Positions 29,573-53,966 of a stretch of DNA of 64,000 nucleotides are shown piece after piece. The stretch spans positions 1,040,769-1,104,768 of the forward strand of contig NZ_LT671417.1 of NCBI RefSeq assembly GCF_900128445.1, read 5' to 3'. The position numbers and the translations under genes were made by a program. The notes under the pieces are model-generated. The model ran no database searches, was not told the origin of the DNA, and worked only from the letters and a program-made list of their open reading frames with translations. The DNA comes from Thermophilibacter provencensis (GTDB taxonomy: Bacteria > Actinomycetota > Coriobacteriia > Coriobacteriales > Atopobiaceae). The first letter of the stretch is position 1, and each line of letters begins with the position of its first letter.

Positions 29573-29606
29573 CCGAACTCCCTTCCTTGGAGTGACTGAC
29601 GCCGAT

Positions 29607-29612
29607 ATTGTA
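29607..29612 (-). promoter_or_regulatory. Likely -10 box of the class II aldolase gene
   Basis: TACAAT on the minus strand, 35 bases before the aldolase start codon, fits a -10 element with a ~28-base 5' leader. The -35 region is weak. Confidence 0.45.
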
Positions 29613-29707
29613 CGTAGGGATGCGAGCTCGTGTATGGCTAGGCTGCCGCGGGCGGCCGCGCGAGCTCGGCAAAAGGGAAACCAAATGCAAGACCTGAGGC
29701 CGCGTTT

Positions 29708-29744
29708 GTAGTGTATTCCTAGAGGGGGAGCGTGAGTACACTAC
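29708..29744. promoter_or_regulatory. Inverted half-site pair 1, candidate DeoR operator
   Basis: GTAGTGTA (29708-29715) and TACACTAC (29737-29744) are inverted, with 29 bases between their starts. The same arrangement recurs 82 bases downstream. Confidence 0.6.
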
Positions 29745-29789
29745 ATTTGCATTTTTGGTAAAGCAGCAGCTCAGAACGTTGTTCGATTC

Positions 29790-29826
29790 GTAGTGTACTT
29801 GGGATGTTCTCCGGAAACCACACTAC
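29790..29826. promoter_or_regulatory. Inverted half-site pair 2, candidate DeoR operator
   Basis: GTAGTGTA (29790-29797) and CACACTAC (29819-29826), again with exactly 29 bases between starts. Identical geometry in two pairs supports a dimeric or tetrameric repressor binding both. Confidence 0.6.
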
Positions 29827-29995
29827 AAACGAGAGGCGACCTCCCGAGCGGCCCAGTCGGCCGCGCCCATGGCCTCCCTTTTCAAAACGAAAGAAAAAGC
29901 AATGTGATAGATTGCCTATAAAGAAAGAATCGGAAACACAATTCGCACATATTCGCGCAAGGTGCGGCACGGGCAACCAAGAAGGGCGAACGACC

Positions 29996-30763
29996 ATGGC
30001 GATGTCATCCGAGGAGCGGCGCGCGGCAATCCTCTCCATGCTCGACCGGGCCACTTCCGTACAGGTGACGCAGCTCGCCGAAGCATTCGGTGTCAGTCGC
30101 GTGACGGCCCGCGCCGACCTCGACGTCCTGGCGCGCGACGGCAAGCTGCGTCGAACGCATGGCGGGGCCGTCTCGCTCTCCAAGTCGCTCACCGTCTCCG
30201 TGCAGGAGCGGCGCATCAACGTGAACGCTGAGGCCAAGCGCGCGATCGCACGGCTCGCCGCGCCGCTGGTGGAAGACGGAGACTCTGTGCTCGTGGATTC
30301 GGGCACCACGGCCCTCGAGCTCGTTCGTGCCATCTCGGGCCGCACGGGTGTGACCGTGGTGACCGATGACTTCACGATCGCGGACTACGTGGACCGCTCC
30401 GCCCCCTCGCTCGACGTCATCATGCTCGGGGGGAGCCTGCGCAAGGGCCACCGCTACACGGCGGGCCCGCTTGCCATGCGGACCCTCGAGGTGCTTCATC
30501 CTCGCAAGGCCTTCGTCACGCCCACCTCCTACGTTCCCGGACGGGGGCTCATGACCAACAACCAGGATATGGCCGAGCTCAAGCGGGCGTTCCTGACCTG
30601 CGCGGACAGGACGTTCGTGCTCATGGACCAGAGCAAGGTCGGTGCTCCGGGCCTGCTCTGGTTTGGCACCCTCCGTGGGGTCGAGGCGGTGGTCATGGAC
30701 GCCGATCCCGATGGCCTGGTCTCCGAGGACGCCGCCGAGCAGGGGTGTCGCGTTCTATACTGA
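29996..30763 (+). CDS. DeoR-family transcriptional regulator
   Basis: A 255-residue DeoR regulator. The N-terminal HTH (about 7-58) has AILSMLDRATSVQVTQLAEAFGVSRVTARADLDVLARDGKLRRTHGGA. The C-terminal DeoRC sensor has VDSGTTALELVRAI and TNNQDMAELKRAFL. It starts at ATG 29996 after GAAGGG. Such regulators sense phosphorylated sugars. It is divergent from the aldolase, and the shared intergenic region has two half-site pairs, so it probably controls both genes. Confidence 0.9.
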   Translation: MAMSSEERRAAILSMLDRATSVQVTQLAEAFGVSRVTARADLDVLARDGKLRRTHGGAVSLSKSLTVSVQERRINVNAEAKRAIARLAAPLVEDGDSVLVDSGTTALELVRAISGRTGVTVVTDDFTIADYVDRSAPSLDVIMLGGSLRKGHRYTAGPLAMRTLEVLHPRKAFVTPTSYVPGRGLMTNNQDMAELKRAFLTCADRTFVLMDQSKVGAPGLLWFGTLRGVEAVVMDADPDGLVSEDAAEQGCRVLY

Positions 30764-36331: not shown

Positions 36332-37267
36332 CTACGCGACCTTCTCGACGCTCGTGCCCGCGCGCAGCTCGTCGGCCACGGCCATGTCGAAGTGGCCGGT
36401 CGAGGGCGTGAGGCAGTTGGCGCTTGCGCAGGCCATGGCAAACGCGAGCTGATCTTCCACGGCCATCCCGCGCGCCATGGCGACGGCGAAGGCGCCCACC
36501 ATCGTGTCGCCGGAGCCCACGGGGTTCACCACGTCGATCTTGGGCGCGCGGCCGCGGAAGACGCCCTCGGGGCAGGCCATCACGGAGCCGTCGCCGCCAA
36601 GGGAGACCACGACCTTCTCGATGCCGTAGGTCTCGTGCACCTCGCGCGCGGCGGCGTAGATCTCGTCGATAGACTCCGGCTTGCGGCCGAGGATCGCCTG
36701 GATCTCGTCCGTGTTGGGCTTGATCATCGCGGGCCGCGCGGGAAGGCTGCCCACGAGAAGCGCTCCCGAGGTGTCTAGGATCGCCGGCTTGCCCGCCGCG
36801 CGCACGATCTCCACCAGCTCGCGGTAGATGGCGTCGCCGCATCCCGCGGGCACGGAGCCGTTGAAGGTCACCACGTCGGCGCGCGCCGCGATCTCACCCA
36901 CCTTTGCGCGCACGGCGATGACCTCGTCGGCCGTCACGGGGCGGCCGGGCTCGAGGAACTCCGTCGAGCGGCCGTCGGGCTCCAGGACGTTGATGCAGCA
37001 GCGCGTCTCGGCGGCCACGTGCACGAAGTCGTGCTCGATGCCATCGGCGTCCAGAAGCTCGCAGAGGAGCCGCCCGTTGTTGCCGCCCACAAAGCCCGTG
37101 GCCACGATCTTCTCTCCGCAGGTGGCAACCGCGCGGGCGGCGTTCAGGCCCTTGCCGCCGGCGTTGTCTATGCACGTCTCGACGCGCATGACGGTGCCGT
37201 CGACGAGCGGGCAGGAGAGCTGGTAGGCCTTGTCGATTGAGCTGTTGAGCGTGACGGTAGAGATCAT
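36332..37267 (-). CDS. PfkB-family sugar kinase (1-phosphofructokinase/tagatose-6-phosphate kinase, LacC-like)
   Basis: A 311-residue PfkB kinase. NAGGKGLNAARAVATCGEKIVATGFVGG near the N-terminus is the substrate loop, and NPVGSGDTMVGAFAVA is the ATP/catalytic-base motif. TLNSSIDKAYQL is the LacC/FruK-style start. It sits on the same strand as lacB and lacA, so tagatose-6-phosphate kinase is the favoured role. FruK cannot be excluded since no EIIB-fructose gene is near. The neighbouring orphan EIIB is divergent from it. Confidence 0.85.
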   Translation of the reverse strand: MISTVTLNSSIDKAYQLSCPLVDGTVMRVETCIDNAGGKGLNAARAVATCGEKIVATGFVGGNNGRLLCELLDADGIEHDFVHVAAETRCCINVLEPDGRSTEFLEPGRPVTADEVIAVRAKVGEIAARADVVTFNGSVPAGCGDAIYRELVEIVRAAGKPAILDTSGALLVGSLPARPAMIKPNTDEIQAILGRKPESIDEIYAAAREVHETYGIEKVVVSLGGDGSVMACPEGVFRGRAPKIDVVNPVGSGDTMVGAFAVAMARGMAVEDQLAFAMACASANCLTPSTGHFDMAVADELRAGTSVEKVA

Positions 37268-37373
37268 GGCGTCTCCTTTTGAGTCGATGTGGGGCGTGCG
37301 CTCAGTGCATCTTATCCCGTTGCGGGCGAGTAAGATAGAAACCACTGGGGTACCACCGGAAGAAAGGTCGGAA

Positions 37374-37847
37374 ATGTCGGGGGCCGACGGCGCGCTCGTG
37401 CGCATTGACAGTCGCCTCGTGCACGGGCAGGTGGTGGCCGCGTGGGTTCGCGCGATCGGAGCGCGCCGCATCGTCGTGGCCAACGACGAGGCCGCCGGAA
37501 ACCCCATGCGGCAGCGCGTGATGCGCATGGCCGTCCCCCAGGGGGTCGAGGTGCTCTTTGAGACCGTGTCTGAGGCGGCGGACACGCTCCGGGCCCTGGG
37601 CTGCGGCCCGACGCTCGCCGTGGTGGAGACTCCCGCGGACGCCCTCGCGCTCGTGGAGGCGGGGGTGCGGCCGACGGTAGTCAACGTGGGCAACCTGCAC
37701 ATGGCCGCGGGAAAGCGGCGGGTCGCCCCGGCCGTGGCCGTGGATGACGGGGACCGCGCCGCACTGCGCGCCCTCCGAGAGCGCGGCGTTGAGGTCGTGG
37801 TGCGCCGCACCCCTCTCGCGCCCGAGGGCTCGCTTGACTGGCTCTAG
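37374..37847 (+). CDS. Orphan PTS mannose-family EIIB
   Basis: A 157-residue EIIB. VRIDSRLVHGQVVAAW holds the phosphorylation histidine (His17 from this start). It has no adjacent EIIA, EIIC or EIID. It is divergent from the lacC-like kinase and convergent on lacB. It may serve a permease elsewhere, or substitute for other EIIBs (for example, with the 40 kb system, which has its own EIIB). Confidence 0.85.
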   Translation: MSGADGALVRIDSRLVHGQVVAAWVRAIGARRIVVANDEAAGNPMRQRVMRMAVPQGVEVLFETVSEAADTLRALGCGPTLAVVETPADALALVEAGVRPTVVNVGNLHMAAGKRRVAPAVAVDDGDRAALRALRERGVEVVVRRTPLAPEGSLDWL

Positions 37848-37935
37848 CCCGTCCTGGGAGGTGAGTCGCGCGGGGCGCTCGCCTATGCCCGTCCTTCTCA
37901 CCTTGCGCCGGTCCATCTGGCCTAGTCTGCCGTAA

Positions 37936-37981
37936 GGCCGATCGGGCGGCGCGCCGCTGCAGGTACGCCGCCCGATCGGCC
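37936..37981. terminator. Bidirectional terminator between EIIB and lacB
   Basis: GGCCGATCGGGCGGCG and its complement (37966-37981) give a 16-base perfect stem with a 14-base loop between two convergent genes. Confidence 0.75.
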
Positions 37982-37997
37982 GGAATTGCGTCTGGAC

Positions 37998-38519
37998 CTA
38001 GTCGTGATACTCGCCGCGGTCCCACTTCTCGAGGAACTCGTCGAAGAAGTGGGGGTCCGCCTGAGCCTCGGCGTCGCAGCCCGCCTCGATGGCGTCGATC
38101 TTGGCGACGAGGGCGTCGCGCTCGGGAGTGGGCTGATAGCTCGCGGCGAGGAAGGCGTCGACGATGTCGGCGATGAGGAACTCGCCGGTAATCTTGCCGC
38201 CAAAGCCGATGACGTTGGCGTTCAGGCACTCGCGGGCGTGCACGGCGGTGGACATGTCGCGGACGAGCGCGCAGCGGGCGCCCGGGACCTTGTTCACGGC
38301 GTTGGTGATGCCCACGCCCGTGCCGCACATGACAACGCCGGCGTCTGCCTCGCCAGAGGCGACCTTCTCGCCCACGGCCTTGCCGTAGATGGGGTAGTGG
38401 GTGCGCGCGTGGTCGTAGGTGCCGCAGTCGATGACGGTGTGGCCGCAGGCCTTGAGATGGTCGGAGATGGCCATCTTCTCGTTGGTGACGATGTGATCGC
38501 AGCCAATCGCGATGATCAT
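37998..38519 (-). CDS. lacB: Galactose-6-phosphate isomerase subunit LacB
   Basis: A 173-residue RpiB/LacAB-family protein, close to the 171 usual for Lac[11 protein letters not shown] near the start, [15 protein letters not shown] and [24 protein letters not shown] are LacB signatures. It forms a heteromer with LacA and converts galactose 6-phosphate to tagatose 6-phosphate. It is 36 bases downstream of lacA. Confidence 0.92.
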
Positions 38520-38555
38520 GGTGTCCTCCTTGGGTGTCGGGTTCCGGCGCTGGCG

Positions 38556-38984
38556 CTAGGCCATCTTGTTGAGCATGTCCACGCGAATCTGGTGACGTCC
38601 GCCGGCATAGGGCTCCGAGAGGAACTCGCGCACGATCCCGCGGGCGATCTCGTCGCCCACGACGGCCGACCCCATGGTGATGAGGCGCGCGTTGTTGTGC
38701 TGGCGCGTCATGAAGGCGGAGCGCTCGTCGGAGCACTCGCAGGCGACCATGCCCTTGACCTTGCAGGCGGCCATGTATGAGCCGTCGCCGTAGCGGTCGA
38801 AGGCAAAGCCGAGGCTGTCGGGGTTCTCAAGGAGGTCGCGCGCGACGGCGAGAGTGGAGTCCACAAGATCTGCCGCGGGCTCCTCGCTCTTGTCCACGAC
38901 CTCGTGCCCGAGCTCGACGAGGTAGGCCTTGACCGTCTCCTTGAGCGGCATGCCCTCAGCGTCAGATCCGATGACGATTCTCAT
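38556..38984 (-). CDS. lacA: Galactose-6-phosphate isomerase subunit LacA
   Basis: A 142-residue LacA, the usual length. [18 protein letters not shown] at the N-terminus and [21 protein letters not shown] near the C-terminus match LacA. It pairs with LacB. The start is ATG 38984; the longer open frame lacks a ribosome site. A candidate LacR operator lies at 39053-39073 upstream. Confidence 0.91.
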
Positions 38985-39052
38985 AGTTGTCCTTTCCCCA
39001 GGGTGGCCTGCAAAGGTGAACCTACGAGAAGTGTACTCGATTTGGGGGAATT

Positions 39053-39073
39053 CAAACAGATTCGAACAAATTG
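39053..39073. promoter_or_regulatory. Candidate LacR operator upstream of lacA
   Basis: CAAACAGATTCGAACAAATTG. It matches the sequence at 40222-40242 upstream of the 40 kb PTS operon over most of its length, especially CGAACAAATTG. Confidence 0.6.
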
Positions 39074-39107
39074 GCACAATGCGCGTACGAGCGCCCGCGC
39101 AAGTGGT

Positions 39108-39216
39108 GTCGCGACGGCCCCGCACGGCGGCCCTGCGGGGGTCTGGCGACGGACGGGGCGAGAAGAACGTCGCGACGGCCCCGCACGGCAGCTCCGCGGG
39201 GGCGTCGCGACGGACG
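39108..39216. repeat. Direct repeat in the lacA/deoR intergenic region
   Basis: Two copies about 48 bases long, starting with GTCGCGACGGCCCCGCACGG, occur 61 bases apart (39108 and 39169). Between them is GGCGAGAAGAACG, the class D motif. The region lies between the stop of the regulator gene and lacA. Confidence 0.7.
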
Positions 39217-39240
39217 CGCCCATCTCGTCATGCGTCGGTG

Positions 39241-40005
39241 CTAGAGCAACACCCGCGCGTACGTGCGAAGATCCTTGAGCTCCTCGGGGTCAACGCCGTC
39301 ATCGCAGATCACGGTGTCATTGGGCTTCAGCGAGTAGAAGGAGTAGAACCCGCGGGAGCCGATCTTGCTGCTGTCGGCGAGCACGAAGCACTCCGTGGCG
39401 TGGTCAAAGACGGTGCTGTAGAGCCGGCCCGCGTCGAGCGTGCTCGTGAAGAGCTGACCGTCGCGCAGGGCGTCGACGCCGATGAAGGCCTTGTCAAAGC
39501 CCAGCGAGGCGAGGGCGTTCTCCGTGATGGGGCCCATGAAGGTGCCCGACCTCGGGCGATAGGTGCCGCCGAGCATGATGATCTCGCGGATGTCCCCGTC
39601 GACGAAGAGGTTGAAGATCGGCAGGCTGTTGGTCACGATGCGCAGCGGAATGACGGGCAGGAACTGGGCCGCCATCTCGACCGTGGTGCTCGAGCCGAGA
39701 AAGATCGTGTCGTCCTCGCTCACGAGAGACGCCGCCGCCTTGGCGATCTTGGTCTTTTCCTCGATGTGGAGAAGCTGGCGCTCGAGATGGGCGGACTCGC
39801 GGATGAGCGCGCGGTCGCGCACGCCCTCGGACGTCTTGGCCCCGCCCCTGAGGCGCTCGATGCGCCCCTCCTCGGAGAGCTCCTCGAGGTCGCGCCGAAC
39901 GGTCATGTCCGAGACGCCGAGCGTGGTGGCTATCTCGTGTACCGAGACGGTGCCGCGCACGCGACACATCTCAACGATTCGGTCCTGTCGCTCGGCCTTG
40001 AGCAT
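39241..40005 (-). CDS. lacR: DeoR/LacR-family regulator
   Basis: A 254-residue DeoR regulator. The HTH covers about 6-57 (MLKAERQDRIVEMCRVRGTVSVHEIATTLGVSDMTVRRDLEELSEEGRIERLRGG). The sensor domain has LGSSTTVEMAAQFL and SSKIGSRGFYSFYSL. It lies upstream of lacA and lacB on the same strand and divergent from the 40 kb PTS operon. Sites of the CGAACAAATTG type occur before both. It is likely to be the tagatose-6-phosphate-responsive repressor for this locus. Confidence 0.87.
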   Translation of the reverse strand: MLKAERQDRIVEMCRVRGTVSVHEIATTLGVSDMTVRRDLEELSEEGRIERLRGGAKTSEGVRDRALIRESAHLERQLLHIEEKTKIAKAAASLVSEDDTIFLGSSTTVEMAAQFLPVIPLRIVTNSLPIFNLFVDGDIREIIMLGGTYRPRSGTFMGPITENALASLGFDKAFIGVDALRDGQLFTSTLDAGRLYSTVFDHATECFVLADSSKIGSRGFYSFYSLKPNDTVICDDGVDPEELKDLRTYARVLL

Positions 40006-40308
40006 GGTTCACCGTCCTCCGCGTCAGCTGTTAATGAACACTATACCCGGCAAATCGCACATCGTTGGGACAGCGTGACAACTCTTGATAACTTGCAACG
40101 TTTCTTGCCAAACCACACGTCATGGTGACGGTCACCGACATTTCGCTACCGTCTGCCCCTATTCTTTCAAAGATACAGTAGCTCGAGTACACATTTTCCG
40201 AACAAATGGCTAGTATTGTTTCGAACAGAAACGAACAAATTGAATCCAAATCTGTTCTGTTATGAAAAATAGCGGCTGATGCGGCTGCGCCAAGGGAGAG
40301 GAATCACC
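40006..40308. other. Divergent promoter region of lacR and PTS operon
   Basis: About 300 AT-rich bases with no gene. It holds three operator-like sites (see 40198-40242) and likely promoters for both directions. The right end has the AAGGGAGAGG ribosome site of the EIIA gene. Confidence 0.55.
40198..40242. promoter_or_regulatory. Cluster of LacR-type operators before the PTS operon
   Basis: CCGAACAAATGG at about 40198-40209 and CGAACAGAAACGAACAAATTG at about 40222-40242 contain repeated CGAACA units, shared with the site at 39053-39073. Confidence 0.6.
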
Positions 40309-40749
40309 ATGAGGGTAGGCGTCATCGTTGCGAGCCACGGCGAGTTTGCGAGGGCGGCACTCGGAAGCGTTGAGATGGTTGCCGGTCCTCAGCAGGACGT
40401 GCGTGCGCTCGCGCTGACGGCCGACAAGTCGGCCGAGACGTTCGAGGCGGAGTTCGCTCAGGCGTACGCGGAGCTCAAGGCCGAGTGCGACCTCATCGTC
40501 ACCATCTGCGACATCCACGGCGGCACGCCGTTCAACGTCATCTCGCGCAGCATCCTCAAGGGCATGGACATGGTCGCCTTTACCGGCCTCAGCCTGCCCG
40601 TCCTTATCGAGCTCCTGCTCTCCCGCGACCAGGCCTCCGACGCTGACGAGATTCGCGGGCTCATCGAGGCGGCCCACGCCCAGACCCTCGCCGAGATCCA
40701 GGTCGAGATGGCCCAGGGGAGCTCGGACGAGGATGACCTCGACCTCTAG
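40309..40749 (+). CDS. PTS mannose-family EIIA
   Basis: A 146-residue EIIA with phosphorylated His10 in MRVGVIVASHG and CDIHGGTPFNV as the second motif. It opens the operon that runs through to the sulfatase and maturase genes. Under presumed LacR control by upstream sites. Confidence 0.93.
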   Translation: MRVGVIVASHGEFARAALGSVEMVAGPQQDVRALALTADKSAETFEAEFAQAYAELKAECDLIVTICDIHGGTPFNVISRSILKGMDMVAFTGLSLPVLIELLLSRDQASDADEIRGLIEAAHAQTLAEIQVEMAQGSSDEDDLDL

Positions 40750-40835
40750 ACCTCGGTCAGCTGCCCGCGCGCGGGGATGGGACCGCCCGCGGGCTTCAAG
40801 AACGGCACGTTAGGCACAGAGAAAGGGAGAAGAAC

Positions 40836-41324
40836 ATGGCACTCAAGCTCGTTGACATCGACGACCGCCTCATCCACGGCCAGCTGGCGTCCACCTGGAT
40901 TCCGGACAACGGCATCGAGTCCGTGATCATCGTCGACGACAAGGTCGCCAACGACCCGGTGCAGAAGTCCGTCGCCGGTCTTGCCGTCCCCAAGGTCAAG
41001 GTCTCGGTCTTCGGCGTCGACAAGTTCATTGACGTCCTCAAGAAGACCACCCTCAAGAAGGTGACGATGGTTCTGTTCACCAACCCCGTCGACGCCCTCA
41101 AGATGCACGAGAACGGCCTGCCGTTCGACTATCTCAACGTCTCCGGCATGCGCTACAACGACCAGCGCACGCGCCTGCACAAGAACATGTCCGTGACCCC
41201 CGAGGAGCGCGAGGCCTTCGAGAAGCTCATCGCCATGGGCGTTGAGTGCTGGATGCAGCCCACCACGCGCGACCCCAAGGTCTCCGTCTCCGAGCTGCTC
41301 GCCGGCGCGCACGCGGAGGCGTAA
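40836..41324 (+). CDS. PTS mannose-family EIIB
   Basis: A 162-residue EIIB; IDDRLIHGQLASTW has the phosphorylated His14. Preceded by AAGGGAG and 86 bases after EIIA. Confidence 0.93.
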   Translation: MALKLVDIDDRLIHGQLASTWIPDNGIESVIIVDDKVANDPVQKSVAGLAVPKVKVSVFGVDKFIDVLKKTTLKKVTMVLFTNPVDALKMHENGLPFDYLNVSGMRYNDQRTRLHKNMSVTPEEREAFEKLIAMGVECWMQPTTRDPKVSVSELLAGAHAEA

Positions 41325-41393
41325 CGAGGCAATGTCGGCGCGGAGAGGGCGCGCCGTCAGCACAAGCGACGACTGTCGTCAGAAGGAGGAGAA

Positions 41394-42203
41394 ATGATCC
41401 AAGCACTGCTGCTTGCCATCTGGGCGGGTCTTTGTACCTGGGACCAGTTTGGCCCGCACCTCGGATTCAGAAAGCCGCTGCTCGCCTCGGTGGGCGTCGG
41501 CATCATCCTTGGTGACATGCCCACGGCCATCATGATCGGTGCCACGATGGAGCTCATGTGGCTCGGCGTCAACAACATCGGCGCCTACGTGCCGCCCGAC
41601 GTCATCTCCGGCACGATCGTGGGCGCTGCCCTCGGCATCATGTCCGGCGGCGACACCGCGAGCGCCATCGCCCTGGCCGTTGCCATCGGCATCCCCACCG
41701 CCACGCTCGTCCAGCAGCTCAACATCCTCGTGATGACCACCAACATCACGTTCCTGCACGGCGCCGACAAGGCGGCCGAGAGCGGCGAGTTCAAGTCCGT
41801 CAACAAGTACTTCTGGGCCGGCGCCGTCTGCTTCTTCCTGACCCGCGCCATCCCGGTGTTCATCGCCACGGGCATCGGCTCGGTCGTGGTCGAGAGCATC
41901 ATGGGCTTCCTGCAGAACCAGGTGCCCTGGGTCCTCTCCGCCTTCTCGACCGCGGGCGGCATGATGCCCGCCGTCGGCCTCGCGATGCTGCTCACCATGA
42001 TGATGAAGAAGAACATGTGGATCTTCCTCATCTGCGGCTTTGTGCTCGCGGCCTTCCTCAAGGTCCCGACGATCGGCATCGCCCTCGTGGCCGCCGCTGC
42101 CGCGGGCTTCTATGACTTCGTCGTCGAGGGAACCAAGAAGTCCCAGGCCACCGCAGCCGTCGACGCCCCTGTCAGCGACGAGGACGAGGAGTATGATCTC
42201 TAA
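41394..42203 (+). CDS. PTS mannose-family EIIC
   Basis: A 269-residue membrane protein; LGVNNIGAYVPPDVISGTIVG and FRKPLLASVGVGIILGD are typical EIIC-Sor segments. Its stop codon overlaps the EIID start by one base. Preceded by AAGGAGG. Confidence 0.93.
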   Translation: MIQALLLAIWAGLCTWDQFGPHLGFRKPLLASVGVGIILGDMPTAIMIGATMELMWLGVNNIGAYVPPDVISGTIVGAALGIMSGGDTASAIALAVAIGIPTATLVQQLNILVMTTNITFLHGADKAAESGEFKSVNKYFWAGAVCFFLTRAIPVFIATGIGSVVVESIMGFLQNQVPWVLSAFSTAGGMMPAVGLAMLLTMMMKKNMWIFLICGFVLAAFLKVPTIGIALVAAAAAGFYDFVVEGTKKSQATAAVDAPVSDEDEEYDL

Positions 42204-43036
42204 TGGGTAAGATTTCCAAGAAGACGCTCAACCGGGTTCTCCTGAGGACCCAGGGCTGCCAGTTCGCCCACAACTACGAGCGCATGCAGTCTCTCTCGCT
42301 CACCTACTGCGTCTCCCCGGTCCTCGAGGAGCTCTACAAGGACGCCCCCAAGGAGCAGCGCGTCAAGGCGATGCAGCGCTACCTCGAGTACTTCAACACG
42401 CACCCCATCGCGATCCCGTTCATCCTCGGCATCGCCACGGCGGTTGAGGAGAACACCGACGAGGACCACAAGGACACCGTCACCGCGATCAAGACCTCGC
42501 TCATGGGCCCCTTCGCCGGCATCGGCGACTCGCTGCTCAACCTCACGTGGTTCCCGATCGCGGGCTCCATCGGCGCCTCCCTGTGCGTCGACAACGGCAG
42601 CCTCATCGGCCCGCTCGTGATGTTCCTGCTCATCAACCTCCTGTACTGGCCGCTCAAGTACTTCGGCCTGCACAAGGGCTACGAGTCCGGCATGGCGCTC
42701 GTCGACAAGTTCGGCGTCGAGGTCTTCGACCGCCTCGGCGACGCCGCCAACGTCCTCGGCGTCATGGTCACCGGCGGCCTCATCGCCACGACGGTCAAGC
42801 TCAAGACCGCCATCGAGTTCTCCTTCGGCGAGGGCGACCCGCTCGTGCTCCAGACCCAGCTCGACTCCGTCCTGCCGTGCCTGCTGCCGATCATCGTGAC
42901 CTTCATCTGCTACCGACTCCTGAAGAAGGGGCAGGGCAAGAACTCCGCCCAGATCATCCTCGGCATCATCGCCGTGTGCCTGGCGCTCTTCGCCCTCAAC
43001 TACTACATCCCCGGCTTCCCGAAGATCATCTCGTAG
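42203..43036 (+). CDS. PTS mannose-family EIID
   Basis: A 277-residue EIID; LRTQGCQFAHNYERMQSLSLTYC and MGPFAGIGDSLLNL are the family motifs. It starts at the EIIC stop, so translation is coupled. Confidence 0.93.
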   Translation: MGKISKKTLNRVLLRTQGCQFAHNYERMQSLSLTYCVSPVLEELYKDAPKEQRVKAMQRYLEYFNTHPIAIPFILGIATAVEENTDEDHKDTVTAIKTSLMGPFAGIGDSLLNLTWFPIAGSIGASLCVDNGSLIGPLVMFLLINLLYWPLKYFGLHKGYESGMALVDKFGVEVFDRLGDAANVLGVMVTGGLIATTVKLKTAIEFSFGEGDPLVLQTQLDSVLPCLLPIIVTFICYRLLKKGQGKNSAQIILGIIAVCLALFALNYYIPGFPKIIS

Positions 43037-43051
43037 GAAGCGCCCTTTCTC

Positions 43052-43083
43052 GGCGCCCCGCCCACCCCTCTGGGCGGGGCGCC
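43052..43083 (+). terminator. Strong hairpin between EIID and the first sulfatase
   Basis: A 13-base perfect stem GGCGCCCCGCCCA / TGGGCGGGGCGCC with a six-base loop, then TCGTATCAATTTT. Its 3' end is 23 bases before the sulfatase start. It fits partial termination or 3'-end protection of the PTS mRNA. Confidence 0.7.
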
Positions 43084-43106
43084 TCGTATCAATTTTCGGA
43101 GGACCC

Positions 43107-44606
43107 ATGAGAACCGTACTCGTCCTGATGGATACGCTGCGCCGGGACGCGCTCGGGTGCTACAACCCCGGAGGCAGCGCGCGAACCCCGAACCTCGACG
43201 CCTTCTCGAGCGAGGCGGTCACCTTCGACAACCACTGGATCGGCTCGGCGCCCTGCATGCCGGCCCGACGCGACATCATGTGCGGGCGCTACAACTTCCT
43301 CGAGCGTCCCTGGGGCCCGATCGAGCCCTTTGACGTGACGCTCGTGGACTGCCTGCGCGCCGGGGGCGTCCGCACGCACATCTCAACGGACCACTGCCAC
43401 TACGCGCGCACCGGCGGCGAGGGCTACCTGCAGCTCTTCAACACCTTCGAGTTCTTCCGCGGCCAGGAGGGCGACCCGTGGGTGAGCCGCATCGACGAGC
43501 CGGACAACATGCCCGAGACCTTCTATGGCCGCGTGCGCGAGCAGTACCAGAAGAACCGCCTCAGGTGGCCCAGCGAGGAGGACATGCCCTCCCCGAGGAC
43601 CTTCCGCTCCGCGTGCGAGTTCATCGACCAGAACGAGGGGAAGGACGACTTCTTCCTCATGGTCGAGGCCTTCGACCCGCATGAGCCCTTCGACGTGCCC
43701 GACCGCTACATGGACGAGTACGGCGGCTCCGAGGGGCTTGACCGCGACTACTTTGAGATCCCGCCCTACAAGCGCGTCTCCGACACCGACATCCCCGAGA
43801 GCGCCGTCGACTACGTGCAGCGCCGCTACAAGGCGCTCGTCACGATGACCGACCACTGGTTCGGAACCCTCGTCGACAAGCTCAAGGAGAAGGGCATGTA
43901 CGAGGGAACGACCGTCATCGTGACCACGGACCACGGCTACTTCCTCGGGAGCCGCGACTACCTGGGCAAGAACTACATGCACATGTACAACGAGATGGCC
44001 CACCTGCCGCTGATCGTGAAGTTCCCCCACGGGGAGCGCGCGGGCGAGCTGGCCCACCAGCTCACCCAGGCCATCGACATCATGCCCACCGTGCTCGAGG
44101 CCCACGGACGCCCCGTGCCCGAGACCGTCATGGGAACCTCGCTCATGCCGCTTGCCACGGACGCCGCGGCGCGGACCCGCGAGTACGCCCTCTACGGCGT
44201 CCACGCCATGACGGTCAACGTGACCGACGGCCGCCACACCTACTTCCGCGCGCCCGTGCCGGGCAACCAGCCCTGCTACGAGTACGCGGCGATTCCCCAC
44301 ACCATCCGTAAGAAGATGGGCGTCGACTGCGTGGACCAGATCGAGATGGGCCGCTTCCTCTCGTGGACGGACTATCCCGTCTACAGGTTCCCGTGCCGCA
44401 AGCCCGCCAACATCGACCAGCGCGAGGACTGCCTCGAGGAGGTCCACGACTCGATGCTGTTCGACCTGAAGGAGGACTACGGCCAGACCCACAATCTCGT
44501 GGGGGAGGACGCCGACGCGGAGGCGCGCATGATCGGGCTGCTCAGGCGCGGCCTCGAGGAGCACGGCGCCCCCGCAGAGCAGTTCGCCCGCCTCGGCCTT
44601 GCGTAA
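43107..44606 (+). CDS. Cytosolic Cys-type sulfatase
   Basis: A 499-residue sulfatase without signal peptide. DTLRRDALGC near the start holds the first metal Asp. Cys50 in APCMPARRDIMCGR is the C-x-P-x-R site, converted to formylglycine. TTDHGYFLGSRDYLGK has the second metal residues. It probably removes sulfate from a sugar in the cytoplasm, since the PTS genes lie directly upstream. The substrate is not readable. The same subfamily as the truncated gene at 62734 (both share FDPHEPFDVP and DHGxxLGxxDYLGKN). Confidence 0.93.
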   Translation: MRTVLVLMDTLRRDALGCYNPGGSARTPNLDAFSSEAVTFDNHWIGSAPCMPARRDIMCGRYNFLERPWGPIEPFDVTLVDCLRAGGVRTHISTDHCHYARTGGEGYLQLFNTFEFFRGQEGDPWVSRIDEPDNMPETFYGRVREQYQKNRLRWPSEEDMPSPRTFRSACEFIDQNEGKDDFFLMVEAFDPHEPFDVPDRYMDEYGGSEGLDRDYFEIPPYKRVSDTDIPESAVDYVQRRYKALVTMTDHWFGTLVDKLKEKGMYEGTTVIVTTDHGYFLGSRDYLGKNYMHMYNEMAHLPLIVKFPHGERAGELAHQLTQAIDIMPTVLEAHGRPVPETVMGTSLMPLATDAAARTREYALYGVHAMTVNVTDGRHTYFRAPVPGNQPCYEYAAIPHTIRKKMGVDCVDQIEMGRFLSWTDYPVYRFPCRKPANIDQREDCLEEVHDSMLFDLKEDYGQTHNLVGEDADAEARMIGLLRRGLEEHGAPAEQFARLGLA

Positions 44607-44645
44607 ACCTGACAAAGGTGACAGGGTGTTTTGTCAGGTTTTCTA
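44606..44645 (+). repeat. Class C palindrome after the first sulfatase
   Basis: AACCTGACAAA pairs with TTTGTCAGGTT across GGTGACAGGGTG, then TTCT. It overlaps the sulfatase stop codon and could act as a terminator before the maturase gene. Confidence 0.8.
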
Positions 44646-44670
44646 GTCCGCGGACGGGACGGGGAGAGAC

Positions 44671-45792
44671 GTGAAGTACATCAGCTTCCTCATAAAGCCG
44701 GCGTCGAGCGCATGCGACATGCGCTGCTCGTACTGCTTCTACCGTGACGTCGCGGACCATCGCGCGCACGCGGTGAGGGAGCTCATGTCGGAGGAGACCG
44801 TGCGCGCGCTCGTGGACCGGGCCCTCGGGCTCGGTTCCGACGCGCAGGTGACCTTCGCCTTCCAGGGCGGCGAGCCCACGCTCGCGGGGCTCGACTTCTT
44901 CCGCTCGTTTACCGCCTACGTTGACGAGCGCCGCACCGGACAGACCGTGAGCTACGCGCTTCAGACCAACGGCCACTCCCTCACGCCCGAGTGGGCGGCC
45001 TTCTTCCGGGAGCACGGCTTTCTCGTGGGGGTCTCCGTCGACGCCTACCGAGAGCTCCACGACAGCCTTCGGGGCGACATCAGGCTGGAGCCCACGCACG
45101 CGCGCGTCATGGAGTCCGTCCGGATGCTCCGCGAGGCGGGCGTCGAGTTCAACGTGCTCACGGTGCTCTCGGCGCAGCTCGCCCGGCACCCGCAGCGGGT
45201 GTTCAAGTTCTACCAGCGCGAGAAGATCGACTACGTGCAGCTCATCCCGTGCCTGGCGGGCTTCGACGGGGAGGGGGAGGAGTACGCCCTCACCCCGCGC
45301 GCGTTCTTCTCGTTCTACCGCACGTTCTTCGACCTTTGGCTGCGCGAGGCACGCGCCGGGCGCGCCTTCTCGGTGGGGCTCTTCGACAACGTGATGCAGC
45401 TCTCGCTGGGCCAGTGGCCCCAGGCCTGCGGGATGCTCGGCCGATGCGCCCCCCAGTTCGTCGTTGAGAGCAACGGCGACGTCTATCCCTGCGACTTCTA
45501 TGCCCTCGACGAGTACCGCTGCGGCAACATCAGGGAGGACTCGCTCGAGGAGATGGCCTCCTGCGCGGTCATGCGCGGGTTTCTGGCAGAGCCGCGCCGG
45601 GAGTGCGCGGCCTGCGCCGACTGCCCGTTCGAGGGGATCTGCCATCGGAACTGCAAGCGCCTCAACGCCTCGTACTATGACGAGACGTACTGCGGCTACC
45701 GGGAGTTTCTCGAGCACGCGTACAAGCCTCTCGCCGAGATGGCCCGCGCGCTCGTGCGCCAGCGAATTGGGGACAGTCCCCAATTCACATAA
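44671..45792 (+). CDS. Anaerobic sulfatase-maturating enzyme (radical SAM/SPASM)
   Basis: A 373-residue radical SAM protein. Cys15, Cys19 and Cys22 in CDMRCSYC bind the SAM 4Fe-4S cluster. FAFQGGEPTLAG is the GGEP motif. The C-terminal SPASM domain has ten or more cysteines, including CGMLGRC and CAACADCPFEGICHRNCKR. It oxidises the sulfatase Cys to formylglycine without oxygen, so it should act on the Cys-type sulfatases here. GTG start. The last nine residues (RIGDSPQFT) are encoded by a class A palindrome, so the true ancestral end was probably near MARALVRQ. Confidence 0.94.
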   Translation: MKYISFLIKPASSACDMRCSYCFYRDVADHRAHAVRELMSEETVRALVDRALGLGSDAQVTFAFQGGEPTLAGLDFFRSFTAYVDERRTGQTVSYALQTNGHSLTPEWAAFFREHGFLVGVSVDAYRELHDSLRGDIRLEPTHARVMESVRMLREAGVEFNVLTVLSAQLARHPQRVFKFYQREKIDYVQLIPCLAGFDGEGEEYALTPRAFFSFYRTFFDLWLREARAGRAFSVGLFDNVMQLSLGQWPQACGMLGRCAPQFVVESNGDVYPCDFYALDEYRCGNIREDSLEEMASCAVMRGFLAEPRRECAACADCPFEGICHRNCKRLNASYYDETYCGYREFLEHAYKPLAEMARALVRQRIGDSPQFT

Positions 45793-45825
45793 AACGTTTC
45801 TGCAAATCGGGGACTGTCCCCAATT
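45764..45825. repeat. Paired class A palindromes overlapping the maturase gene end
   Basis: A perfect palindrome (45764-45786) followed by an imperfect one (45805-45825), 18 bases apart. The first encodes the last residues of the maturase and the stop codon comes just after it. The spacer shares AAACGTxTCTGxAAAT with 25244-25272. Confidence 0.88.
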
Positions 45826-45843
45826 CACAGACAGGGAGGACTG

Positions 45844-47331
45844 ATGGCAGGCATTTCTGATGACGGCCTCGAGAGCCGTCGTCCCAACGTCGTCTTGATC
45901 ATGTGCGACCAGTTCAGGGGGGACTGCCTCGGCTTCGACGGCCATCCTGACGTGAAGACGCCCTATCTTGACACGCTCGCCGCGCAGGGAACCTACTTCG
46001 AGAACGCGCACGCGGCGTGCCCGAGCTGCATCCCGGCGCGCGCGTCGCTGCTCACGGGCACCATGCCCGCAACCAACGGTCGCGTTGGCTATCAGGATGG
46101 CGTCCCCTGGCGCTACGAGCACATGATGCCGGAGGAGTTCTCGGCCGCCGGGTACCAGACGGCACTGGTGGGCAAGATGCACGTGCACCCTCCGCGCCTG
46201 GCGTGCGGCTTCCAGCACCTGCGCCTGCACGACGGCTACATAGGCCACTACCGCAAGGCAAACCTCCCGCACTGGATGCATCAGGACGTCTCTGACGACT
46301 ACCTGCGCTTCCTCCGCTCCGAGCTGGGCCCCGAGGCGGATGTCAACGGCACGGGCGTGGAGAACAACTCCTGGATCGCGCGCCCTTGGGTCTACGAGGA
46401 GCGCCTCCACCCCACCAACTGGGTCGTCGACGAGTCCATCCGCTTCCTCGAGACGCGCGACCGCACCCGCCCGTTCTTCCTCATGGCGAGCTTCGTCCGC
46501 CCGCACCCGCCCTTCGACGCCCCTGCGGCCTACTACCAGCCGTACCTCGACCGCGAGCTGCGCGAGCCGGCGCATGGGGACTGGGAGGACGCGGAGGCGA
46601 CCGCGCGCGACGGCATGGTCATCGACAGCGCGCACGGCTGCCGCGACGCCACGCTGCGCCACGAGGCCATGGCGGGCTACTACGGCTGCATCACGCATCT
46701 CGACCACCAGATCGGCCGGCTCATCACGGCGCTCGAGAACGACGAGACCTACGAGAACACCGTGGTGCTCTTCACCGCGGACCACGGCGAGATGCTCTTC
46801 GACCACAGCTCGTTCCGCAAGGTGCTGCCCTACGAGGGGAGCACGCGCATCCCCTTCATCGTGCGCGTGGGCTCCAAGGTGCTGCCCGACGGACGGCCCC
46901 GGCCCCGACGCTCGGACGCGGTGGTGGAGCTCATGGACGTCATGCCCACCCTGCTCGACCTCGTGGGCGCAGAGGTGCCCGAGACCGTCGAGGGCTCGTC
47001 TCTCAGGGGGGAGATCACGGGCGAGAAGAACCTCGAGCGCGCGTACCTCCACGGCGAGCACTCCGGAAGCCACGAGCAGTCCAACCAGTGGATCTTGACC
47101 GGTCACGACAAGTACGTCTGGTTCACCCAGACGGGCGTGGAGCGCTACTTCGATCTCAATGCCGATCCGCGCGAGGAGCATGACCTCGCCCACGACCCGG
47201 CCCATGCCGAGCGCGTCGCGGAGCTCCGTGCCATACTCATGGACGAGCTGCGCGGCCGCGAGGAGGGCTACGTCGAGAACGGCGAGCTCGTCGTGGGCAG
47301 GACGCCCAGGACCGTGCTGGGGAGAGACTAG
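45844..47331 (+). CDS. Cytosolic Cys-type sulfatase, second
   Basis: A 495-residue sulfatase without a signal peptide. CDQFRGDCLGFDGHPDVKTPYLDTLA is the N-terminal metal-binding segment. Cys62 in CPSCIPARASLLTG is the modified cysteine. FTADHGEMLFDHSSF has the second metal residues. The C-terminal ~70 residues end in LAHDPAHAERV, the usual small C-terminal sulfatase domain. It lies 51 bases after the maturase. Its subfamily differs from the first sulfatase (CIPAR versus CMPARR context), so a different sulfate position or sugar is likely. Confidence 0.94.
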   Translation: MAGISDDGLESRRPNVVLIMCDQFRGDCLGFDGHPDVKTPYLDTLAAQGTYFENAHAACPSCIPARASLLTGTMPATNGRVGYQDGVPWRYEHMMPEEFSAAGYQTALVGKMHVHPPRLACGFQHLRLHDGYIGHYRKANLPHWMHQDVSDDYLRFLRSELGPEADVNGTGVENNSWIARPWVYEERLHPTNWVVDESIRFLETRDRTRPFFLMASFVRPHPPFDAPAAYYQPYLDRELREPAHGDWEDAEATARDGMVIDSAHGCRDATLRHEAMAGYYGCITHLDHQIGRLITALENDETYENTVVLFTADHGEMLFDHSSFRKVLPYEGSTRIPFIVRVGSKVLPDGRPRPRRSDAVVELMDVMPTLLDLVGAEVPETVEGSSLRGEITGEKNLERAYLHGEHSGSHEQSNQWILTGHDKYVWFTQTGVERYFDLNADPREEHDLAHDPAHAERVAELRAILMDELRGREEGYVENGELVVGRTPRTVLGRD

Positions 47332-47361
47332 GGCGCCTGACGGCGTCGGGAGGAGAGGCGC

Positions 47362-48000
47362 ATGGACCTCAGGCTGATAGGAATCATCGTGGTGGCGCTC
47401 TGCGTCATTTCGCTCGTCTATACCGAGGTCCAGAAGCGCCTCATCTTCTCGAGGTACGAGAAGCTCTTCGAGAAGGGCGACTTCGACGGCTGCCTGCGCG
47501 TTCTCGACGGGCCGGTCGTGAAGATCGTCTACCCGCGCTACAACCAGCTCTACATGCGCCTCAACGCGCAGATGTGCCTCGCTGACGCAGATGCCTCGCG
47601 GCGCACCATCGACGAGATGCTCGAGCTGAGCTCGAGCGACAAGCAGCGACTCGTGCTGCTCCTGCGCGCCTTCAACTTCTTCGTCGAGCAGGAGGACTAC
47701 GAGCGCGCGGGCGAGCTGCTCGAGGAGCTGCGCGAGAAGGCCTCGCCCGAGCAGCTCGCCGGGTGCGAGCGCACCTACGCGATCTTCGCCGAGAAGAGCG
47801 CTGCCTACGTCGACCAGATGGAGGCCGAGCTTAAGGACGCCACGGGGCCGGAGCGCACCACGCTGCTCTACCTGCTCTCCGTCCAGTATGAGAACAAGGG
47901 TGACGTCAAGCGTGCGAACGAGTATCTTGAGCAGGTCAGAAACGTCTTCGAGGCCGCGGTCGGCCCCGATGCGGGCACGGACGACGGGGGAAGGGGCTAG
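47362..48000 (+). CDS. Membrane-anchored TPR-like protein
   Basis: A 212-residue protein with one N-terminal transmembrane helix (about 5-23, IGIIVVALCVISLVYTEV) and a mostly helical cytosolic region with TPR-like repeats (YEKLFEKGDFDGCLRVLD, YLLSVQYENKGDVKRANEYLEQV). It may help assemble or anchor proteins of the operon. Function unknown; family not recognised. Confidence 0.7.
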   Translation: MDLRLIGIIVVALCVISLVYTEVQKRLIFSRYEKLFEKGDFDGCLRVLDGPVVKIVYPRYNQLYMRLNAQMCLADADASRRTIDEMLELSSSDKQRLVLLLRAFNFFVEQEDYERAGELLEELREKASPEQLAGCERTYAIFAEKSAAYVDQMEAELKDATGPERTTLLYLLSVQYENKGDVKRANEYLEQVRNVFEAAVGPDAGTDDGGRG

Positions 48001-48042
48001 GCGGCTCCCGTCGTCCGCGTTCCCGTCCTAAGGAGGGCTTCC

Positions 48043-48831
48043 ATGCAGGTGCTCGTTCTTCTCGTCAGCTTCTTCGCATGTACCGTCGGTGCCATCTGCG
48101 GCATCGGCGGCGGCATCATCATCAAGCCGGTGCTCGACGCCACGGGCGTGGCGGACGTCGCCACGATCAACTTCCTCTCGGGCTGCACGGTGCTCTCGAT
48201 GACGCTCTACTCCGTCCTCAAGGCAAAGCTCTCCGGAACCTCCACGATCGATCCCAAGACCGACACGCCGCTCGCCATCGGCGCCGCGGTGGGCGGCCTT
48301 GCGGGCAAGGAGCTCTTCTCCCTTGTGGCTGGGCTCTTCCCCGATCCCAACACCGCGGGTGCCGTGCAGGCGGGGGCGCTGCTGGTGATTACGCTGGGAA
48401 CGCTCGTCTACACCATCTACAAGGAGAAGATTCCCACCCTTCAGGTGACGTCCGCCGTGGCGTGCCTCGCCATCGGCTTCGTCCTGGGCGTGTGCTCCTC
48501 GTTCCTCGGCATCGGAGGCGGCCCCATCAACCTGGTGGTGCTCTTCTACTTCTTCACCATGGCGACCAAGCGCGCCGCGTCGAGCTCGCTCTACATCATC
48601 CTGTTCTCCCAGGCCACGAGCACCGCGAGCTCCATCGTCACCGGGGGCTACGTGGGCGTGGACCTGGCGCTGCTGGCGGCAATGGTGGTCTGCGGCATCC
48701 TCGGCGGCATCGTGGGCCGCAAGGTCAACGCCAAGATCGACGACAAGACCGTGGACAAGCTCTTCATGGGCCTCATGGTGCTGATCATCCTCATCAACGC
48801 GTACAACATCTGGAAGTTCGCGCTGGCTTAG
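48043..48831 (+). CDS. TauE/SafE-type sulfite/sulfate exporter
   Basis: A 262-residue membrane protein with about eight hydrophobic segments and the two GIGGG motifs of the TauE/SafE family (CGIGGGIIIKP near the N-terminus, FLGIGGGPINLVV in the middle). Family members export sulfite, sulfoacetate or sulfate. Directly after sulfatase genes the most likely cargo is sulfate released in the cytosol; that is an inference. GGAGGG precedes the start. Confidence 0.88.
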   Translation: MQVLVLLVSFFACTVGAICGIGGGIIIKPVLDATGVADVATINFLSGCTVLSMTLYSVLKAKLSGTSTIDPKTDTPLAIGAAVGGLAGKELFSLVAGLFPDPNTAGAVQAGALLVITLGTLVYTIYKEKIPTLQVTSAVACLAIGFVLGVCSSFLGIGGGPINLVVLFYFFTMATKRAASSSLYIILFSQATSTASSIVTGGYVGVDLALLAAMVVCGILGGIVGRKVNAKIDDKTVDKLFMGLMVLIILINAYNIWKFALA

Positions 48832-48921: not shown

Positions 48922-49728
48922 ATGGCAGACGGACCAATCGAGCGGCTCAGGGCGCGCCTTGGGGACTTCACCCCCTCGGAGGAGGCGGCCGCGCGCTACT
49001 TCATCGAGCACCCGACCTCGGTGGTCAACAAGACCATCGCCGCGGTGGCCCGCGAGGCGGGCCTCAGCTCGACTGCCATCATGCGCATGTGCCAGCGGAT
49101 CGGCTATAGCGGCTACGCGGAGTTTCGCTTCTGCATGAACCGTCAGCTCCTCTCGCACGGGGCGGATGCGGACAGGGGCGCGGACGAGGGCAGGGATCTC
49201 TCTTCCCACGACAACCTTGCCAACGCCTACTCCGCCTATCTCAGAAAGACGACGGACGGACTGGACAAGGCGCAGCTCGCGCGGTTCGCGCGCCTCATCC
49301 TGAACGCGCGCCGCATCAGCATCTGGGGCGCCAACCGCACCTACGAGAGCGTCAAGCAGCTCTCGCTGCGGCTCTTCCGCATCGGCATCTTCAACCAGAC
49401 CACCTCGGACGAGCAGGTCATGGATGACATCTCGACGATCCTTGGGCCGGGGGACCTCTGCATCGTCATGTCCATGAACGGGCGCGGGAGCAAGTCGTAC
49501 GGAACGCTCATGTCGTCTCTCGTGGAGCGCGGCTGCGACGTGCTGCTCGTGACGATGAACCCCAAGCTCCCCTTCATCAAGAACGCCTCTGAGGCCGTGG
49601 TCCTTCCCTGGATCAGCAGCGACTACGCGGCGGGCCTCCTCGAGGACCAGATCGTCGTGTTCATGTACGTGGAGTGCCTGCTCAACGAGATCGCGCACCT
49701 GCTCGACGGGGGAGAGGGCCGGGCATAG
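48922..49728 (+). CDS. RpiR-family transcriptional regulator
   Basis: A 268-residue regulator. The N-terminal HTH_6 (residues ~1-75) has FTPSEEAAARYFIEHPTSVVNKTIAAVAREAGLSSTAIMRMCQRIGYSGYAEFRF. The SIS domain (~120-245) binds phosphosugars. It precedes a sulfatase-PTS operon with three phased operator sites, so it is the probable regulator of that operon. Confidence 0.91.
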   Translation: MADGPIERLRARLGDFTPSEEAAARYFIEHPTSVVNKTIAAVAREAGLSSTAIMRMCQRIGYSGYAEFRFCMNRQLLSHGADADRGADEGRDLSSHDNLANAYSAYLRKTTDGLDKAQLARFARLILNARRISIWGANRTYESVKQLSLRLFRIGIFNQTTSDEQVMDDISTILGPGDLCIVMSMNGRGSKSYGTLMSSLVERGCDVLLVTMNPKLPFIKNASEAVVLPWISSDYAAGLLEDQIVVFMYVECLLNEIAHLLDGGEGRA

Positions 49729-51286: not shown

Positions 51287-51340
51287 GGGCCATCGGCTGC
51301 CGCGCGGCGGCCGTGTTGGATACGAGAGAGGGAGGACCGC

Positions 51341-52267: not shown

Positions 52268-52280
52268 GCAAGGAGGAAGC

Positions 52281-53105: not shown

Positions 53106-53106
53106 C

Positions 53107-53958: not shown

Positions 53959-53966
53959 GGGGCGCG

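Follow-up and report, generated by a model that had tools for sequence, protein, structure and literature searches.

In streptococci, lacAB are under a sugar repressor, as Afzal reportedly described in 2014, and this repressor, LacR, is a DeoR-family protein; in Escherichia coli, the AgaR regulon belongs to a tagatose-6-phosphate route and, to our knowledge, contains neither LacAB nor sulfatases. The LacAB reaction converts galactose-6-phosphate to tagatose-6-phosphate (PMC3755991, for the chemistry). For E. coli AgaR, tandem binding to repeats is reported in an account that deals with galactosamine and N-acetylgalactosamine (GalNAc) genes (PMC5018945). Operators of the DeoR-family regulator RhaR are described as two imperfect direct repeats with a periodicity of 10-11 bp, and in Chloroflexus aurantiacus a tandem TCGAAA array was tested in gel shifts, with the predicted motif reported as confirmed (PMC3870299). 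Uptake of host glycan fragments by an EIIABCD phosphotransferase system (PTS) is described for hyaluronan in Streptococcus agalactiae (PMC6837340), and a chondroitin operon of Proteus vulgaris is described as holding a putative sulfatase gene together with putative PTS genes (PMC9067506). Here, we analyze 64,000 nucleotides (the window) of the 2.63-Mb genome of Thermophilibacter provencensis, a gut Olsenella-type bacterium, in which two closely similar direct-repeat sites, one before lacA and one before a divergent PTS-sulfatase operon, lie on either side of a gene for a DeoR-family regulator.

Our analysis makes it quite probable that this regulator, which we refer to as LacR, is a local two-target repressor in a system that uses a sulfated sugar of the galactose type in the cytosol. 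In this model, both sites would be operators of the regulator encoded between them, and LacR subunits would bind the two CRAACA half-sites on one face of the DNA, at the lacAB promoter as well as at the divergent EIIABCD-sulfatase promoter, and repress both units. A sulfated galactose-type sugar would enter and be phosphorylated via the mannose-family PTS, maturase-activated sulfatases would desulfate it in the cytosol, and the freed sulfate would exit through a TauE-type exporter. LacAB would then convert galactose-6-phosphate to tagatose-6-phosphate, to be processed by a LacC-like kinase and an aldolase, and LacR is probably released by one of the phosphorylated intermediates, galactose-6-phosphate or tagatose-6-phosphate.

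As in the streptococcal LacR-lacABCD system, lacAB would be under a sugar repressor and serve the same galactose-6-phosphate to tagatose-6-phosphate chemistry (PMC3755991). By contrast, the co-regulated uptake system would here be a mannose-family PTS together with sulfatases, a maturase and a TauE exporter; moreover, LacG is not found above cut-off in the genome, the genes for the LacC-like kinase and the aldolase are located separately, and orthology of the regulator to LacR is not established. RhaR regulons share the direct-repeat operators with a 10-11 bp period and differ in their rhamnose genes and half-site, while the AgaR regulon differs by its GalNAc/galactosamine route. The PTS clusters for glycosaminoglycans differ by their lyase and unsaturated glucuronyl hydrolase chemistry, and neither lacAB nor a shared DeoR operator is mentioned for them in the cited parts of the two sources (PMC6837340, PMC9067506). 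Searches of an open-access library showed, among the titles listed, no coupling of PTS-sulfatase genes to lacAB. The parts are of known kinds (DeoR-family direct-repeat operators, the LacAB route, PTS, and sulfatases that depend on an anaerobic sulfatase maturase, anSME), and it is their union in a single local regulon with two targets that did not turn up in these searches. The shared operator points to a substrate class and makes sulfatase and PTS genes that are otherwise uninformative directly testable; the small two-site regulon lends itself to a clean in vitro test.

Two direct-repeat sites on either side of a DeoR-family regulator gene

The genes lacR, lacA and lacB follow one another on the minus strand. 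Divergent from lacR, an operon-like row on the plus strand (40309-48831) encodes EIIABCD, sulfatase 1 (Sulf1), anSME, sulfatase 2 (Sulf2), a tetratricopeptide-like (TPR-like) protein and a TauE/SafE family protein. The 11-mer CGAACAAATTG occurs exactly on the plus strand at 39063-39073, before lacA, and at 40232-40242, before the EIIA gene, and a copy with one mismatch, CGAACAAATGG, is present on the same strand at 40199-40209. A reading made earlier from the letters of this DNA (the sequence-only reading) had proposed the same operator-like sequence before both genes, with an extra copy at about 40198, and these positions bear it out. The 21-bp spans CAAACAGATTCGAACAAATTG (39053-39073) and CGAACAGAAACGAACAAATTG (40222-40242) are identical at 18 of 21 bases, and in both the exact 11-mer makes up the second half of a CRAACA-N4-CRAACA direct repeat with a 10-bp period, i.e. 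about one helical turn. The site before lacA (O-lacA, plus strand, 69-89 bp before the start codon of lacA) has the half-sites CAAACA and CGAACA, separated by GATT and followed by AATTG; the site before EIIA (O-EIIA, plus strand) has the same architecture, with CGAACA twice, GAAA between and AATTG after. The auxiliary half-site CGAACAAATGG is 23 bp upstream of the O-EIIA pair, and its CGAACA is at an unchanged distance in the loci L038 and L039 of the two closest relatives. Direct repeats with a 10-11 bp period in target promoters, which characterize operators of the DeoR type, are therefore present at both sites.

With at most one mismatch, CGAACAAATTG has three matches in the window, compared with a mean of 0.38 and a largest value of 2 in 100 dinucleotide shuffles, and the exact 11-mer occurs five times in the genome as opposed to none for a reversed-pattern control. 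The best common 20-mer of the two intergenic regions of the window agrees at 17 of 20 positions, which was reached in 2 of 500 Markov shuffles, and their longest common word of 11 bases was reached in 16 of 500. In the whole genome, the 20-mer CRAACARAWWCRAACAAWTT has five matches with up to three mismatches, compared with two for the control. The two sites match it without mismatch by construction, because the pattern was drawn from both of them, and the other three matches have three mismatches each; the informative part of this search is the gap between the two sites and the next matches, i.e. no site in the 2.63 Mb has one or two mismatches.

LacR (39241-40005, minus strand, 254 aa) has an HTH_DeoR domain (PF08220, 61.8 bits; cut-off 21) and a DeoRC sensor domain (PF00455, 145.7 bits; cut-off 31.8), and has in this way both domains expected of the DeoR family. 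Its best NCBIfam match is GlpR_Halo with 152.2 bits against a cut-off of 300; no equivalog cut-off is reached, and no LacR model is among the matches. The LacR-type gene proposed earlier to lie between the sites thus encodes a protein of the DeoR/GlpR family that reaches no curated NCBIfam cut-off, and it is for this reason that 'LacR' is used as a working name and not for a proven LacR ortholog.

The gap between lacR and lacA (38985-39240) also contains GC-rich repeat-like units (gtcgcgacggccccgcacgg...). It is 256 bp long in the window, 625 and 484 bp in the two closest relatives (L038 and L039), and 127-147 bp in the second of the two LacR clades described below.

Conservation in the genus and recurrence beyond it

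Among 31 genomes of the genus, LacR (E<=1e-50) is found in nine, LacB (1e-40) in the same nine and Sulf1 (1e-60) in eight of those nine, so that all three occur together in eight of 31, and none of them is found in the other 22 at these thresholds; the counts are uncorrected for relatedness, which lessens what they can say for the model. The gene block may move as a unit. All eight genomes with an intact block, the window's included (lacBA-lacR facing EIIABCD-Sulf1-anSME-Sulf2-TPR-TauE), have the tandem site, allowing one mismatch, at both promoters, and the 16 tandem-site matches in these eight loci (fetched loci plus the window) are all at the two promoters and nowhere else. In the ninth genome with LacR (G017), the regulator locus has no more than fragments of the PTS genes and Sulf2, with two DeoR genes beside pieces of EIIA, EIIB, EIIC and Sulf2 (L049, 9347-13327); here the block seems to be decaying.

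LacR forms two clades, which are 95-100% and 66-70% identical to the protein of the window and whose intergenic DNA has diverged. Regulators of Olsenella sp. SW781 and Olsenella uli An733 are 95-96% identical to it, and those of Olsenella sp. An285 and of an uncultured Atopobiaceae metagenome-assembled genome are 70% identical. When the two intergenic regions of the window were compared with those of five clade-2 genomes by best match, a 20-mer on the operator ranked first in both, with 16.6 of 20 in one region (mean 11.45, standard deviation 0.99, 284 windows) and 14.8 in the other (mean 11.02, standard deviation 1.00, 237 windows).

Relatives of Sulf1 (E<=1e-140) are present in 17 of 396 genomes sampled from the class, namely seven of this genus, G032 and nine others. 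The eight genus loci, G032 and nine further loci provided 18 regions before EIIA and 13 before lacA for comparison; in L047 and L111, the lacA region is the region before lacR-lacAB. NRAACA pairs with a spacing of exactly 10 bp are present in 11 of the 18 EIIA regions and in 11 of the 13 lacA regions, and in 8 of 13 and 7 of 9, respectively, once near-duplicates are dropped (L038, L041, L043, L113 and L117; five from the EIIA set and four from the lacA set), compared with means of 0.13 (EIIA) and 0.02 (lacA) and a maximum of 2 in 1000 Markov shuffles, figures that are descriptive because the hexamer was fixed after the sites had been seen. In one other family (f10), lacAB adjoins the operon in four of eight loci. 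Three of these (L116, L117 and L118) have lacAB at the opposite end, preceded by an upstream region of its own, and half-site pairs or triplets at 10-bp steps are found in both regions; the fourth (L111) has a strict pair before EIIA and a relaxed CTAACA-N4-CGAACA before lacR-lacAB. In G032, a tandem-like site with one mismatch lies just upstream of a lacC relative (L047:2072). The claim of the sequence-only reading that a shared operator ties lacAB to the sulfatase locus is strengthened by the conservation in all eight intact blocks, by this recurrence in other genera and in another family, and by the co-occurrence of LacR, LacB and Sulf1.

The proposed two-target repressor weighed against other explanations

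Several results weigh against the model. A consensus scan of 37200-40500 found no standard sigma-70 promoter. The lacC-like and aldolase genes of the window have no tandem site with at most one mismatch, and therefore, of the tagatose route, the operator links in the isomerase step alone. With one mismatch, the bare tandem hexamer has 11 matches in the genome and 11 in the reversed control; by itself it therefore predicts nothing, and we rejected it as a genome-wide predictor. Exact tandem hexamers number 14 in the 31 genus genomes as opposed to 9 in the control, and nine of the 14 are at the two promoters. When the lacA and EIIA regions are aligned genome by genome, the tandem sites are the single best alignment only in the window and in L038. 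A GC-rich stretch scores equally well in L039, and none of the five clade-2 genomes has a best shared 20-mer that aligns the two tandem sites; in L043 and L044, it is the EIIA pair that aligns best, with a CGAACAAAC half-site closer to lacA. The strict 10-bp pair is missing in 7 of 18 EIIA regions (L040, L041, L047, L113, L114, L115 and L119) and in 2 of 13 lacA regions (L047 and L111). Relaxed sites are found in some of these, i.e. CGCACA-N4-CAAACA before EIIA in L040 and L041 and CGCACA-N4-CGAACA before lacR-lacAB in L047; by eye, the EIIA region of L047 has GTAACA-N4-GTGACA instead, and it adjoins a second regulator, whose recognition helix differs (SEMTARRDL in place of SDMTVRRDL). Finally, a galactokinase-type protein is encoded elsewhere in the genome, and therefore other galactose routes exist, and one survey, as far as the cited part goes, reports Leloir genes in all 29 genomes with the tagatose route (PMC5583593).

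The link to galactose comes from LacAB and from the neighbors of related regulators. LacA and LacB both score above curated models for subunits of the tagatose-6-phosphate pathway, and the genome has one LacB match at E<=1e-40, in this block. LacG, which a classical lac operon would include, gives six matches to TIGR01233 in the genome, none above cut-off; with one LacB and no LacG above cut-off, this lacAB is therefore unlikely to serve a classical lactose PTS. In two genomes (G009 and G018), a second lacB is about 5 kb from LacG, and no tandem site is present within the 3.5 kb fetched there (L068 and L069). In two others (G052 and G059), regulator relatives that are 46-47% identical to LacR adjoin galactokinase and galactose-1-phosphate uridylyltransferase genes, and a tandem TGAACA-N4-YGAACA is just upstream of the regulator gene (L045 and L046). 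The same PTS-sulfatase operon, with a 46% identical regulator, adjoins galT, galK, galM and a LacG above cut-off in G233 (L119, 1604-19367), where a gene for a GH35 beta-galactosidase follows about 2.4 kb past the other end of the operon; GalK and GalM of this genome are Pfam matches below the NCBIfam equivalog cut-offs. Together with the GH35 enzyme, the Leloir enzymes and LacG point to a disaccharide substrate in this relative, a sulfated galactoside, which complicates a simple galactose reading. That a galactose-type sugar is released, as had been suggested from the letters alone, thus gains support from the operator on lacAB and from the regulator relatives beside galK-galT.

The sites could also be operators in a system that frees GalNAc or another amino sugar, with a PTS of the Aga type and lacAB as a side branch into tagatose-6-phosphate. 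This would agree with EIIA and EIIC scoring best, although below cut-off, against the NCBIfam models AgaF and AgaW, with an Aga-type model as second best for a lone EIIB (37374-37847), and with AgaR as the closest model, below cut-off, for a second DeoR gene (29867-30763). However, the GalNAc route is described as joining at tagatose-6-phosphate, while the galactose route passes via galactose-6-phosphate (PMC5583593), and the operator sits on lacAB, the genes for the conversion of galactose-6-phosphate to tagatose-6-phosphate (PMC3755991). Moreover, no AgaS-type protein or deacetylase is among the window proteins scanned, in scans that left some open reading frames (ORFs) out, and G233 has galK-galT-galM-LacG there instead. 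On balance, an amino sugar is unlikely to be the product.

Returning to a galactose-type sugar, a C6-sulfated sugar is described as unsuitable for phosphorylation by a PTS (PMC6837340), and phosphorylation of the sulfated residue itself would therefore require a sulfate elsewhere, e.g. at C3; in an imported disaccharide, it may be on the other residue. Among solved structures, Sulf1 has only distant relatives, a choline-sulfatase scoring best at 96.2 bits, and the nearest to Sulf2 is 9koq, which is named only 'Sulfatase'; neither match gives the position of the sulfate, and we make no claim about the subfamily. Sulfate caps restrict how bacteria feed on mucin glycans, and mucin-desulfating sulfatases are assigned to Bacteroidetes and, in one of two surveys, also to Akkermansia, in what the cited parts of these surveys state (PMC5583593, PMC6069880). 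The block predicts a different logic for Actinobacteria, in which the sugar would be imported first, desulfated inside and fed into the tagatose route. Tentatively, and as a possibility that we would not rate as high as an even chance, we propose that coriobacteria import O-sulfated galactose (not at C6; e.g. the 3-O-sulfogalactose of mucin) via a dedicated mannose-family PTS to give sulfo-galactose-6-phosphate, desulfate it afterwards in the cytosol and export the sulfate by a TauE-type protein, while a DeoR-family regulator of the direct-repeat kind senses galactose-6-phosphate or tagatose-6-phosphate and switches both units.

The sign of regulation can be judged from the placement of the sites. 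By eye, O-lacA overlaps the -35-like TGTTTG of a promoter-like TGTTTG-17-TACACT, and O-EIIA is a few bases past a -10-like box TAGTAT (40211-40216) and is therefore probably over the transcription start; in relatives, the -10-like box near EIIA reads, again by eye, TAGTAT (L038), TACCAT (L039), TATAGT (four of five clade-2 genomes) and TAGAGT (L040). This differing placement, at a -35-like element in one case and a -10-like element in the other, would suit an activator or a regulator with opposite action at the two promoters, and one DeoR-family activator, that of the L-fucose operon, is among the NCBIfam matches. Both sites touch core promoter elements, however, and repression of both units is therefore favored; furthermore, the other DeoR-type models with a sign in their name are repressors (SrlR, AgaR, YgbI and DeoR). 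Activation at one or both promoters is, in our judgment, unlikely.

A repressor acting at both sites need not be LacR. The genome has seven DeoR-type matches including LacR, and each of the others might recognize CGAACA, which resembles the GlpR half-site of E. coli; the sites could thus belong to another DeoR-family protein or to a regulator of broader reach with such a half-site, and the adjacency of LacR would be incidental. Three observations speak against this explanation, which we consider quite unlikely: CRAACARAWWCRAACAAWTT has no other near-match in the genome; only one of the 14 exact tandem hexamers falls in any of the 22 genus genomes that lack LacR; and related sites are found upstream of distant regulator homologs in other contexts (L045 and L046). 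That the sites are a chance likeness of two AT-rich intergenic stretches is very improbable, for the parity of one-mismatch bare hexamers with their controls and the 16 of 500 shuffles that reach an 11-base common word are set against conservation at both promoters in eight of eight genomes, the rank tests and the excess of 10-bp spacing.

LacR would accordingly be left with two local targets on the present count. Three other exact 11-mers were considered and rejected as regulon members: C3:445681 is inside a long ORF of a surface-type protein (by eye); C3:449365 is about 60 bp before the listed TTG start of an ORF of the helix-turn-helix type and inside a listed ORF on the opposite strand; and C3:1628501 is within two plus-strand ORFs of a mechanical listing, roughly 100 bp upstream of an ORF on the minus strand that resembles a transposase by eye. 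A third exact tandem hexamer, at C3:1586188, is inside an ORF. None of the four was counted because the 20-mer is never found with fewer than three mismatches there.

Gene content of the locus and neighboring features

LacA (38556-38984, minus strand) scores above the cut-offs of PRK08621 and TIGR01118 and below that of PRK12613 (180.8 of 243), and LacB (37998-38519, minus strand) above that of PRK08622 and below those of TIGR01119 (279.5 of 312.55) and PRK12615 (278.8 of 325); both are annotated as galactose-6-phosphate isomerase subunits. The lacC-like gene (36332-37267, minus strand) encodes a hexose kinase of the tagatose-6-phosphate kinase/1-phosphofructokinase type that exceeds only the TIGR03168 subfamily cut-off, the lacC models remaining below theirs. 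The lone mannose-family EIIB gene at 37374-37847 lies between lacB and lacC and is retained in the two closest relatives. A class II ketose-bisphosphate aldolase similar to GatY/KbaY (28721-29572, minus strand; above TIGR00167, below the GatY/KbaY cut-offs) is a candidate for the last step of the tagatose route. Its gene is divergent from the second, AgaR-like DeoR gene (28721-30763 for the two), and the pair may be a separate regulon that supplies the same route.

On the plus strand, the mannose-family PTS genes EIIA (40309-40749), EIIB (40836-41324), EIIC (41394-42203) and EIID (42203-43036) all encode proteins that score below model cut-offs. Sulf1 (43107-44606) has a CMPAR motif and Sulf2 (45844-47331) a CIPAR motif (both by eye); both are above the Pfam Sulfatase cut-off, and Sulf2 is also above the PRK13759 arylsulfatase cut-off. 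The radical SAM/SPASM protein anSME (44671-45792) is below its equivalog cut-off (323.5 of 349.45). The C-x-P-x-R motif of Cys-type sulfatases and a maturase are thus both present, as in a Cys-type system that depends on anSME. By eye, the translations of Sulf1 and Sulf2 have no evident signal peptide, and for this reason both are taken as cytosolic. The TauE/SafE family exporter (48043-48831) is a candidate exit for the freed sulfate. The small TPR-like protein (47362-48000), a weak Pfam match below cut-off that is conserved in the block, is encoded in 17 of 18 compared PTS-sulfatase loci and is missing in L119.

Further sulfatase genes follow the block. A second PTS-sulfatase unit (49898-55505) encodes a sulfatase with a CSPSR motif, an EIIAB fusion, EIIC, EIID and a DUF3604/CehA-type protein, and it adjoins a gene for an RpiR-family regulator (48922-49728). 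Two more sulfatase genes are on the minus strand (62734-63999 and past the end of the window), and their products are 41% and 38% identical to Sulf1.

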